64,000 nucleotides of DNA from Desulforudis sp. (GTDB lineage Bacteria > Bacillota > Desulfotomaculia > Desulfotomaculales > Desulforudaceae): positions 1 through 64,000 of the forward strand of contig QZIR01000027.1 in the NCBI GenBank assembly GCA_003604975.1, read 5' to 3'. The notes beneath the pieces were generated by a model. That model saw only the letters and a program-made list of their open reading frames with translations. It did not search any database and was not told the origin of the DNA. Made by a program: the position numbers and the translations under genes. Positions 27,638 to 31,239 of this stretch are shown here, piece after piece; position 1 is the stretch's first letter; each line of letters begins with the position of its first letter.

Positions 27638-27730
27638 TCACCCGCCGATGAATACTAATTCTTTATCGGCATCCATGAGCTTTCCCGCCGCCGGCAATAT
27701 CTCCCTGTTGATGCACGCTAAAGTCTCCAC
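27638..27730 (-). pseudogene. Possible pabC (aminodeoxychorismate lyase) N-terminal remnant
   Basis: A 30-codon frame starting GTG at 27730 and overlapping the pabB-remnant stop reads LACINREILPAAGKLMD. This resembles the first strand of PabC/IlvE-fold proteins (an ING..VPAAEA-type start), which often follow pabB. It ends at TGA 27638, far short of a normal length near 270 aa. The match is short and could be chance. Confidence 0.3.
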
Positions 27731-28116
27731 CCGTCCACCTCCAGTCGCGAAACTCCCAGTGCCCGTAAGAGAGCCCTCGCCTTGTCGAGTGTTTCGTGAT
27801 ACTCGGCTTGTGGATCAGAATCGATGGTTATGCCTCCCCCGACGTGGAAGTGTACCTCACCTTTATGGCAAACCATGCTCCGGATCACGATACTCAAATC
27901 GGCATTGCCGTCAAAGCCCAGGTAGCCTATAGCCCCGGTGTACACACCACGCCTGACCGGTTCCAGTTCCTCGATAATCTCCATCGACCTGACCTTGGGC
28001 GCCCCCGTAACAGAGCCTCCCGGAAAACATGCGCGCAGCAAGTCAACCGCATCGCGGTCCGGTTCCAAGCGCCCCTCCACCGTCGATACGAGTTGAAAAA
28101 CCGTGGCATGGCTTTC
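27718..28116 (-). pseudogene. pabB: pabB/trpE-type chorismate-binding enzyme, C-terminal remnant
   Basis: The frame encodes the last third or so of an aminodeoxychorismate/anthranilate synthase component I. It has TVFQLVSTVEGRL, then FPGGSVTGAPKVRSMEIIEE, GVYTGAIGYLGFDGNADLSI and VGGGITIDSDPQAEYHET, all active-site or core motifs. A normal protein is about 450-500 aa. Upstream of 28116 the frame (open to 28203) has no family resemblance, so the 5' two thirds is deleted. The preserved C-terminal motifs suggest a recent break. PabB would supply p-aminobenzoate for folate. Confidence 0.8.
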
Positions 28117-28317
28117 AAGACGATAGAGAAAGCAGTAGCGTTGCAAATATGCCATGTGTTTGTCAATCAACTGATGGCGAAAAACAGCGTAATTCAGCGA
28201 CAAGACAAAGAGAAATCCCTTATAATAGAGATTGAAGGTAGTCCTTACCTAAATCTCTAAGATAATCAACTACTAAGGTCGACGAAGGATAGACCACGAA
28301 GCGAAATAAACCGCGTA
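28117..28317. other. Junction region between pabB remnant and bzaB, no gene seen
   Basis: About 200 AT-richer bases. The frame from 28203 into the pabB remnant has no recognisable domain. I see no clear hairpin-plus-T terminator for the bza genes and no RNA gene. This is the likely deletion breakpoint of pabB. Confidence 0.5.
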
Positions 28318-29601
28318 TCAGGCAATGCCGAAATATCTGGCGGCAATCTGTGCGGCACAGTCGTTCCCGCAAACGGCGCACAGGCGTTCTTCTTCCCCGT
28401 TTTCTCCCAGGGCTGCCCGTGATCTGTGCGGGTCTATTGACAGGCTGATCTGCCTGTCAAGATCAAGGGCTACCTTGGCGCGGGCCATTTGCAGATCCCT
28501 TTCCCAGGCCCTCCTGTCACCCCTGGCGAGATCCGCGGCATGAGCGGCAATTCTCGCTGCCATAACACCATCTCTTACGTCTTCTTCCGTGGGCAGGCCC
28601 AGGTGTTCCGCCGGTGTCACGTAGCAGAGGAAGTCGGCGCCGGCGGCTCCTGCAATTGCCCCGCCAATGGCAGACGTGATGTGGTCGTATCCCGGCGCGA
28701 CGTCGGTGGCCAGCGTTCCCAGGATAAAGTAAGGCGCGCCGTCGCACAGGCGCTTTTGCAAAAGCATCGTCGCTTCAATATGGTGCATGGGAACGTGCCC
28801 GGGACCTTCAACCATCACCTGGACACCGGCGGCCTGGGCTCTGGCCACAAGTTCGCCGGCGATAATCAGGCCCTGGAGCTGGGCTCCGTCCAGGGAGTCG
28901 GCGGTGGATCCCGGACGAATGGCGTCGCCGAGGCTCAGGGTCACGTCATATTCTTTTAAAATGGCCAGCAGTCGGTCAAACTGCTCATACAGGGGATTTT
29001 CCTTTTGGTTGTGAAGCATCCATCCCGTCAGGAAAGCCCCACCTCTGCTGACCACGTCGGTAACCCGGCCCCTTGCCTGAAGGCGCTTAATAACATCAAC
29101 GTTCAAGGCGCAGTGGATGGCCATGAAATCCACACCTGCCGCCGCCTGCTTTTCAACGGCATCGAACATGTCTTCAGCGGTCATGCCCACGATGGCGCCC
29201 CGTTTTTCAATGGCTTCAATGGCAGCCTGGTAAATGGGCACGCTCCCCACAGGCACACCGGCCTTCTCCAGGGTTTGTCTCCGCATGCCGTCAATGTCCC
29301 CGCCGGTGCTCAAATCCATAACGGCATCACAGCCGGCAGCCTCCGCAATGGCAAGCTTTCTTTCTTCCACCTCAATCCGATCGCGGTCGCTGGACGTGCC
29401 GATAAGTGCATTTACTTTCACCCGCAGCCCCTGCCCGATTCCGCACGCCTTGATCTGCTTACGGTTGATATTCCTGGGAATAACAATTCTCCCCGCGGCA
29501 ACTCCCGCCTGAATCAGGTTGACGTCCAGGCCTTCACCGGCGGCCACCATTTCCATTTCAGGGGTAACTTTACCCGCGCGGGCTGCTAAAACCTGTGTCA
29601 T
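28318..29601 (-). CDS. bzaB: ThiC paralog, probable 5-hydroxybenzimidazole synthase subunit BzaB
   Basis: A radical-SAM ThiC-family protein of about 427 aa. It matches ThiC throughout: RIVIPRNINR near 38, NALIGTSSD near 64, DAVMDLSTGGDIDGMRR near 91, EGPGHVPMHH near 258 and TPAEHLGLP near 325. The C-terminal cluster motif is CAVCGNDC, with three residues before the last Cys, whereas canonical ThiC has CX2CX4C. It is one of two tandem paralogs behind a cobalamin riboswitch, which points to lower-ligand (benzimidazole) synthesis from AIR. ATG 29601 is favoured over GTG 29610. A true ThiC role cannot be excluded. Confidence 0.75.
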   Translation of the reverse strand: MTQVLAARAGKVTPEMEMVAAGEGLDVNLIQAGVAAGRIVIPRNINRKQIKACGIGQGLRVKVNALIGTSSDRDRIEVEERKLAIAEAAGCDAVMDLSTGGDIDGMRRQTLEKAGVPVGSVPIYQAAIEAIEKRGAIVGMTAEDMFDAVEKQAAAGVDFMAIHCALNVDVIKRLQARGRVTDVVSRGGAFLTGWMLHNQKENPLYEQFDRLLAILKEYDVTLSLGDAIRPGSTADSLDGAQLQGLIIAGELVARAQAAGVQVMVEGPGHVPMHHIEATMLLQKRLCDGAPYFILGTLATDVAPGYDHITSAIGGAIAGAAGADFLCYVTPAEHLGLPTEEDVRDGVMAARIAAHAADLARGDRRAWERDLQMARAKVALDLDRQISLSIDPHRSRAALGENGEEERLCAVCGNDCAAQIAARYFGIA

Positions 29602-29616
29602 ATCTATCACCCTTTC

Positions 29617-30915
29617 TCAACAAGTTTGCCGGGCGGTGCCCAGATATTCCGAAACCACTTTCATGGCGCAGTACTTCCCGCACATGGCGCAGCCTTCCGA
29701 TGCGTCATCGCTTCTCTCTCTTCGGAGCCTTCGTGCCCGCTCCGGGTCCAGGGCAAGGTCAATCTGTTTCTTCCAGTCCAAAACCTTTCTGGCCTGTGAA
29801 ATTTTAAGATCCCATTCCGCGGCCCCCGGCAGCCCCCTGGCCAGGTCTGCGGCGTGGGCAGCAATCCGCGCCGCCACCACTCCTTCCCGCACCTGGTCGA
29901 CATCGGGCAGACCGAGGTGCTCGGAAGCAGTAACGTAGCATAAAAACTCGGCGCCCGCCCAGGCGCTGATGGCGCCTCCAATGGCCGCGCTGATGTGGTC
30001 GTAACCCGCCGCTACATCCGTAACCACCGGGCCGAAAACAAAATACGGCGCCCCCTTGCACAGGCTCTTTTGCAGTGTGACCGTTGCTTTGAGCTGGTTC
30101 AACGGCACGTGGCCCGGACCCTTGACCATGATCTGCACCCCGGCTTCCCTGGCCCGCCTGACCAGTTCGCCCAGGACCACCAGTTCCTGCACCTGAGCGC
30201 CGTCCAGGGAATCGGCAAGGCAGCCCGGCCTCATGCCATCCGCAAGGCTGACCGTTACGTCGTACCTGCGGGCAATCTCAAGGACTCTGTCGTAGTATGT
30301 GTACAGCGGGTTTTCCGCCTGATGATACAGCATCCAGCCGATAAGATGCGACCCTCCGTAGCTTACCAGGGGGTCAATCCTTCCTTCTTTCTTTGCCCGC
30401 TCCACAATATCCATTGTCGTGCCGCAGTGCAGGGCCAGGAAGTCTATTCCGTCTGCGGCATGACGCTCAATCACTTCGAAAAGTTCTTCCACTTTCATCT
30501 TCGCTGAGGAGCCGTATTTTTCGCCGGCTTCGGCCATGGCCTGGTACAGAGGGAGCGTTCCCACCGGCCTGGGGGTTAAAGCAAGCGCCTCCCGGCGCAT
30601 GGCGTCAATATCCCCGCTTACGCTTAAGTCCATGATTGCGTCTGTTCCGGCTTCAACCGCAGCCCTGATTTTAGCCAACTCGGACGAAAATGTTGCTTTC
30701 CTTCCGTACAGGCCGACGCTTGCGCTTACCTTGGTTCTTAAACCCGTGCCTATGCCCACCGGGGCAATGTTATTACGGCGAATATTGCGGGGTATGACAA
30801 TGGTGCCTCCGGCAACCCCGTCCCGCACAAATTCAGGAGAAACACCCTCCATCGAGGCCACCTTGTTCATCTCAGGCGTTATTTCTCCCTTTAAAGCTCT
30901 GCCTAACCGCGTCAA
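29617..30915 (-). CDS. bzaA: ThiC paralog, probable 5-hydroxybenzimidazole synthase subunit BzaA
   Basis: A 432-aa ThiC-family radical-SAM protein, first gene after the cobalamin riboswitch. Core motifs are TIVIPRNIRRNN near 39, DAIMDLSVSGDIDAMRR near 94, VKGPGHVPLNQ near 257 and VTASEHLGLPD near 325. The C-terminal cluster is CAMCGKYC (CX2CX3C). It differs from its neighbour in places where ThiC is normally invariant, for example SASVGLYG in place of N.NIGTS. In anaerobes BzaA and BzaB together convert AIR to 5-hydroxybenzimidazole for cobamides. TTG 30915 follows AAGGGAGGGA. Confidence 0.75.
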   Translation of the reverse strand: MTRLGRALKGEITPEMNKVASMEGVSPEFVRDGVAGGTIVIPRNIRRNNIAPVGIGTGLRTKVSASVGLYGRKATFSSELAKIRAAVEAGTDAIMDLSVSGDIDAMRREALALTPRPVGTLPLYQAMAEAGEKYGSSAKMKVEELFEVIERHAADGIDFLALHCGTTMDIVERAKKEGRIDPLVSYGGSHLIGWMLYHQAENPLYTYYDRVLEIARRYDVTVSLADGMRPGCLADSLDGAQVQELVVLGELVRRAREAGVQIMVKGPGHVPLNQLKATVTLQKSLCKGAPYFVFGPVVTDVAAGYDHISAAIGGAISAWAGAEFLCYVTASEHLGLPDVDQVREGVVAARIAAHAADLARGLPGAAEWDLKISQARKVLDWKKQIDLALDPERARRLRRERSDDASEGCAMCGKYCAMKVVSEYLGTARQTC

Positions 30916-30946
30916 TCTTGTCCCTCCCTTTTCATTAAAACAATAA

Positions 30947-30970
30947 TCCTCAACCTTTAAAGGTTGAGGA
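30947..30970 (-). terminator. Terminator hairpin of the cobalamin riboswitch
   Basis: A 24-bp perfect palindrome built on CCTCAACCTTT/AAAGGTTGAGG, followed on the coding strand by ATTATTGTTTT. It lies between the aptamer and the bzaA start, where a B12-dependent expression platform would sit, so cobalamin binding probably favours premature termination. Confidence 0.75.
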
Positions 30971-30997
30971 CTTTTCCATCATCCCCAAGCAAGAGTA

Positions 30998-31172
30998 AAA
31001 AGGCAGGTCTCCTGGCTAACGGTTCATCGCTTCACTCAAGCCTTCCCGGGCAAAGCCCAGTGGCAACACTGAGAAAACTCACCGACTACAGTGGCGGGTC
31101 CGCGCCGTTTCAGAACCCTGCTGCGAGGCATTCCGTCCGGACTTCCCTATTCTCCCCGAAGGGCACCTTTTC
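30998..31172 (-). promoter_or_regulatory. Cobalamin (B12) riboswitch
   Basis: On the minus strand the conserved blocks of the B12 aptamer appear in order: GGTGCC near the 5' end, a GGGAA, CCCGCCACTGT, then GCCACTG with GGGAAGGC, and finally the B12 box AGCCAGGAGACCTGCCT near 31015-31000. It precedes the two ThiC paralogs by about 85 bases, with a terminator between, so it should repress them when adenosylcobalamin or a related cobamide is abundant. The region 31173-31239 shows no further feature. Confidence 0.92.
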
Positions 31173-31239
31173 ACCGTAAACTTGGTAAATATTTAATTGT
31201 ATTTATTAATACTCGAAAGATTTGTTACTTCCTTCTATC

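Follow-up and report, generated by a model that had tools for sequence, protein, structure and literature searches.

On the minus strand of the window, by which we mean the whole stretch of 64,000 nucleotides of Desulforudis sp. DNA that was analysed, we identified a tandem bzaA-bzaB pair downstream of a cobalamin riboswitch. Judged from its gene content, this two-gene operon would very probably yield 5-hydroxybenzimidazole, with 5-hydroxybenzimidazolyl cobamide (Factor III) as most likely the organism's own cobamide. The bzaAB system is already known, and the window adds a new member with a reduced, 5-hydroxybenzimidazole-only gene set. From the lower-ligand genes of a microbe one can predict the B12-like cofactor that it produces and is able to share. 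Relatives of Desulforudis are dominant in some deep-subsurface waters, and two lineage members seem to have the capacity to provide Factor III.

Identification of bzaA and bzaB

Both open reading frames matched the ThiC radical-SAM family (ThiC_Rad_SAM, PF01964) with more than 600 bits. The first gene, bzaA (29617 to 30915, minus strand, 432 aa, 602 bits), starts with a TTG codon, and the second, bzaB (28318 to 29601, minus strand, 427 aa), begins with ATG 15 nt past the bzaA stop codon, an alternative GTG start 9 nt upstream giving a product of 430 aa. The BzaB model TIGR04386 scored 759.1 bits for 28318 to 29610, with a curated cut-off of 700. As NCBIfam returned no BzaA model, the identity of BzaA was addressed with a tree of 115 proteins (LG+C20 PMSF in quick mode, SH-aLRT support), a set holding no BzaF sequence, and 16 BzaB proteins served to retrieve 80 named loci for comparison. 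TIGR04385 was considered as a BzaF model and rejected; it is B12_rSAM_cofa1 and was employed solely as a test for BzaD.

BzaA (41 rows), BzaB (39) and ThiC (16) each fell on one side of a branch with an SH-aLRT support of 100. The first window protein was placed inside the BzaA clade, together with the BzaA proteins of Moorella thermoacetica (78% identical) and Eubacterium, and the second inside the BzaB clade, whereas neither was placed within ThiC. The nearest neighbours of both were their sisters from Desulforudis sp. J_13, with 98% identity. The genome's own ThiC grouped with the ThiCs of its family; it is encoded by a single gene, split across two contigs, that lies behind a TPP riboswitch and separate from bzaAB. 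A ThiC fragment on contig C15 was considered as a fourth paralogue and rejected, as it is the end of the thiC on contig C32, continued over the contig break with an exact overlap of 99 bp. The other searched genomes of the same family had at most one ThiC-type match at the applied threshold.

The initial annotation had described two tandem ThiC-family genes under a cobalamin riboswitch at this place and had read them as bzaA and bzaB. The arrangement is confirmed by the PF01964 matches and a match to the riboswitch model RF00174, and the bzaAB interpretation is supported by the two separate clades with 100% support, the TIGR04386 score above the cut-off and the location of the genome's own ThiC elsewhere. 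The phylogeny that was proposed as a check likewise turned out in its favour, with neither protein clustering within true ThiC and a separate TPP-controlled thiC in the genome.

At the base of BzaA and BzaB the tree also contained tandem ThiC-like pairs from seven loci, mostly of Desulfosporosinus, which lie behind cobalamin riboswitches and mostly before bzaC, bzaD or bzaE. Their A-like proteins mostly have Ser228, Arg343, Lys422 and Lys572, and the B-like proteins often have the ThiC-like residues Asn228, Glu422 and Tyr449. These pairs appear to represent a divergent or ancestral version of the synthase.

Active-site residues

The residues were mapped to the numbering of Arabidopsis ThiC, with roles taken from PMC4389238 and PMC11117688. 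Conserved throughout were the phosphate ligands Tyr286, His322, Ser342 and Arg386, the metal ligands His426 and His490, and Asp383, Glu489 and Cys483; both window proteins keep the ligands of the aminoimidazole ribotide (AIR) phosphate, the metal and the SAM ribose as well as Asp383 and the catalytic Cys. Residues 228, 422, 448, 449 and others differ consistently between the Bza proteins and ThiC. Position 228 is a fixed Asn in ThiC, Ser in 41/41 BzaA and Leu in 39/39 BzaB, and position 422 is Glu in ThiC and in 39/39 BzaB and Lys in 41/41 BzaA. The window bzaA product carries the BzaA signature Ser226/Ser228/Tyr343/Lys422/Phe449, and the bzaB product the BzaB signature Leu228/Arg343/Glu422/Val572. 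In ThiC, Asn228 contacts the ribose 3'-OH and Glu422 the ribose 2'-OH (PMC4389238, PMC11117688). Because both residues have been proposed for a diol-dehydratase-like step toward HMP-P (PMC11117688), their replacement is consistent with another outcome of the reaction on the same substrate. The signature provides a simple sequence rule that separates BzaA, BzaB and ThiC, which the general ThiC models do not separate.

It is very improbable that the pair represents additional thiC copies, serving thiamin synthesis, that came under B12 control by chance, as both proteins lie outside ThiC with 100% support and a TPP-controlled thiC is already present in the genome. Most of the AIR-binding residues are conserved, and both proteins pass the cut-offs of TIGR00190 and NF009895, the general ThiC models, so that automatic annotation may call them ThiC. 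However, neither protein combines Asn228 with Glu422, since Asn228 is replaced by Ser in BzaA and by Leu in BzaB, and Glu422 by Lys in BzaA; the E413Q variant of CcThiC, which changes the equivalent of Glu422, yields no HMP-P (PMC11117688).

The initial annotation had also taken the C-terminal motif CX2CX3C, in place of the CX2CX4C of ThiC, as a mark against ThiC. Both window proteins do end in this motif (CAMCGKYC and CAVCGNDC), but it is found in every short ThiC examined and was rejected as a Bza marker. The genome's own ThiC shows it (CTMCGDFC), as do other plain single-copy ThiCs, and it was present in 36/36 proteins with a readable motif that scored closest to M. thermoacetica ThiC, a set that includes some deep-branching Bza-like proteins. 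It occurred in 70/70 BzaA and 63/67 BzaB; the remaining four BzaB have CX2CX4C, the motif of long ThiC such as that of E. coli.

SAM contacts and a possible heterodimer

The Bza proteins can be aligned with the ThiC crystal structures over almost their entire length. A ThiC subunit has its cluster domain inserted in the barrel of its partner, and two residues hold the SAM adenine, Arg343 from the barrel and Met572 from the inserted cluster domain. BzaB has Arg at position 343, where BzaA proteins have Tyr, Phe, His or Cys; at position 572, in the cluster loop, BzaA has Met and BzaB mostly Val or Ala. This complementary pattern was seen in nearly all classical pairs, the BzaB of one pair keeping Met. 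An obligate heterodimer with a single intact composite SAM pocket would be expected to show just such a loss of Arg343 in BzaA and of Met572 in BzaB, and we tentatively suggest, while holding it somewhat less probable than the opposite, that BzaA and BzaB form such a heterodimer with composite active sites. One SAM pocket, made of the BzaB barrel and the BzaA cluster domain, would then be complete, and the other would lack both contacts, whereas either homodimer would miss one SAM contact at both sites. The degenerate half may have a different step or a structural role.

In the deep-branching Desulfosporosinus-type pairs the arrangement is mirrored, with Arg343 in both proteins, Lys572 in the A-like and Met572 in the B-like protein, and the intact site would be in the A barrel. 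The idea of one intact site therefore stands, but a claim on which barrel does the chemistry is weakened. In the literature searched, which covered few subscription journals, we found no paper on the complementary loss of SAM contacts. If true, the heterodimer would account for the need for two genes where BzaF can act alone, and it is a concrete and testable proposal.

Riboswitch and terminator

A cobalamin riboswitch aptamer was found at 30985 to 31185 on the minus strand (RF00174, cmscan 102.7 bits, E 1.4e-24, gathering score 31.5), and the match is full-length, covering all 189 positions of the covariance model. The initial annotation had named this search as a check of the aptamer that it saw on the minus strand, and the strong match bears it out. 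The 24-bp terminator palindrome that it had placed before the first gene was confirmed as well. This palindrome, TCCTCAACCTTTAAAGGTTGAGGA, occupies 30947 to 30970 of the minus-strand leader and is followed by TTATTGTTTT. It forms the 12-pair stem and TTAA loop of an intrinsic terminator hairpin with a T-rich tail (30945 to 30972, minus strand), which belongs to the expression platform of the riboswitch and lies approximately 30 nt 5' of bzaA. A hairpin was present at the equivalent position in the seven other bza leaders inspected, and the different stem sequence at the same place supports a conserved terminator.

When cobamide is plentiful, the leader RNA would bind it and the terminator hairpin would form, halting transcription before bzaA; when cobamide is scarce, an alternative pairing would let the polymerase read through. 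A possible antiterminator would pair aptamer sequence with the 5' arm of the terminator, a duplex with a computed energy of -12.2 kcal/mol. The minimum free energy of the whole leader was unexceptional compared to shuffled sequences (z = -0.63), and the covariance model and the hairpin are therefore the basis of the structure claims for the leader. A cobalamin riboswitch was detected upstream in 17 of the 18 other classical bza loci scanned; among these 18, locus L068 has just 129 nt before bzaA.

A second cobalamin riboswitch was observed on the same contig outside the window (L015:13808-14003, corresponding to C6:77808-78003). It is located upstream of two membrane-protein genes and a gene for a CobN-like chelatase (1316 aa, L015:8072-12022), which together are a possible cobalt or corrinoid uptake operon.

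Predicted pathway and product

BzaA and BzaB, as radical-SAM paralogues of ThiC, would jointly turn AIR into 5-hydroxybenzimidazole, the base of the cobamide lower ligand; bzaA plus bzaB, or bzaF, has been used as the criterion for this first step (PMC6461909). The corrin-ring genes are present elsewhere in the genome, and a single cobT (PF02277, 436 bits) is located within a cob/cbi cluster on contig C23. No homologue of cobT, bzaC, bzaD or bzaE was found in the window, in agreement with the initial annotation. No orthologue was found in the genome for bzaC (best match 27% identity, without the DUF2284 domain), bzaD (best 24 bits vs 450) or bzaE (best match 29% identity), and the complete anaerobic DMB pathway (bzaABCDE) was thus not found in the genome, its best matches being generic. 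With a single cobT and no bzaC, bzaD or bzaE orthologues in a genome that is 99% complete, the ligand is predicted to be 5-hydroxybenzimidazole. This narrows the choice of final ligand, which the initial annotation had left open. The genome is a draft of 75 contigs (99.4% complete) and a bza gene could sit in a gap; the generic O-methyltransferases and B12-binding radical SAM proteins of the genome could act on the ring, or CobT could use an imported base instead.

The best match to BzaC in the genome is a PF00891 O-methyltransferase (contig C41, 360 aa, residues 20-309), and through such an unrelated enzyme 5-hydroxybenzimidazole might be converted to 5-methoxybenzimidazole, making Factor IIIm the final cobamide. 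We regard this as improbable, since the protein is 27% identical to BzaC, is without the DUF2284 part that is seen in BzaC proteins or their split halves, and is encoded behind ABC-transporter genes and not with cobamide genes. In Desulfofundulus and relatives (four loci), BzaC is apparently split into an O-methyltransferase and a DUF2284 protein.

Homologous operons continue after bzaAB with cobT-bzaC-bzaD-bzaE, which matches the operons characterised in M. thermoacetica and Eubacterium limosum (PMC8123684) and supports the bzaAB reading. The pair in the window might be a decaying, unused remnant of a bzaAB-cobT-bzaCDE operon, with the lower ligand being salvaged. We find this hard to accept, as two species have kept both frames and the riboswitch intact, and at least nine further loci carry bzaAB and no other recognised bza gene, although approximately 8 kb of downstream sequence was available. 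What speaks for decay is the full operon in a relative of the same small clade, together with an IS-related fragment and a truncated pabB remnant that lie downstream of the pair in the window, and a transposase seen in the sister species. The dN/dS values between the window and J_13, however, were 0.127 for bzaA and 0.231 for bzaB, within the range of most neighbouring Wood-Ljungdahl genes, and this purifying selection suggests that the pair works. A working two-gene operon for 5-hydroxybenzimidazole is the reading we prefer.

Genomic setting

The segment from approximately 1.8 to 31.2 kb encodes a formate dehydrogenase, Fhs, AcsE/D/C/B, CooS and bzaAB, and the likely users of the cobamide would include the corrinoid iron-sulfur protein of this adjoining Wood-Ljungdahl cluster. 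In none of the other bza loci examined did the 8 kb fetched on either side contain CODH/ACS genes, and the adjacency is therefore a feature of the lineage and not a rule. A functional link between bzaAB and the Wood-Ljungdahl cluster is inferred.

Positions 1800 to 31245 are approximately 98% identical to Desulforudis sp. J_13, whereas identity drops to 88% for argG and 82% for argH, just outside this block, and to 75-81% for the cob cluster. The dS values were 0.01-0.07 inside the block compared to 0.65-0.83 outside, with the jump, of about tenfold or more, located between 31245 and 31434, from the riboswitch to argH. A block of approximately 30 kb with the Wood-Ljungdahl genes and bzaAB was probably exchanged recently within the genus. 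A binning error is less likely as the cause, since argH and bzaAB are on one contig in both genomes. The differing flanks in the sister species suggested that bzaAB might be a free mobile cassette; this was rejected, because argH is upstream on the same sister contig and the gene order is shared.

Some further traces were observed around the block. Adjoining bzaB, at 27718 to 28203, there is a C-terminal remnant (161 aa) of a chorismate-binding enzyme of the pabB/trpE type, which is 52% identical over 125 aa to the product of a complete pabB-like gene at L011:3413-4798. Fragments at 1302 to 1627 and 28133 to 28265, near both ends of the Wood-Ljungdahl block, are 79-82% identical to a DDE-transposase element of J_13. 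Approximately 6.2 kb between argH and the bza riboswitch in J_13 (L145:2820-9064), including a DUF3160 protein, are largely missing from the window's genome.

Comparison with known systems

Compared to ThiC, the phosphomethylpyrimidine synthase (PDB 4S25-4S29, 3EPM), the window proteins are alike in fold family, C-terminal cluster motif and phosphate and metal ligands, but differ at residues 228, 422, 448, 449 and others, and in being under B12 instead of TPP control. In M. thermoacetica, bzaAB-cobT-bzaC leads to 5-methoxybenzimidazolyl cobamide (PMC8123684). The B12 riboswitch and the tandem bzaA and bzaB are shared with that operon, with 78% protein identity, whereas in the window neither cobT nor bzaC is beside the pair, cobT being elsewhere and bzaC not found. 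The E. callanderi locus (L103) has the first two genes and the riboswitch in common with the window, but bzaCDE were not found in the Desulforudis genome, so DMB is not predicted. Geobacter sulfurreducens makes 5-hydroxybenzimidazolyl cobamide with bzaF and cobT (PMC8123684). The final ligand predicted for Desulforudis is the same, with one ThiC-like enzyme (BzaF) in G. sulfurreducens and two paralogues in Desulforudis.
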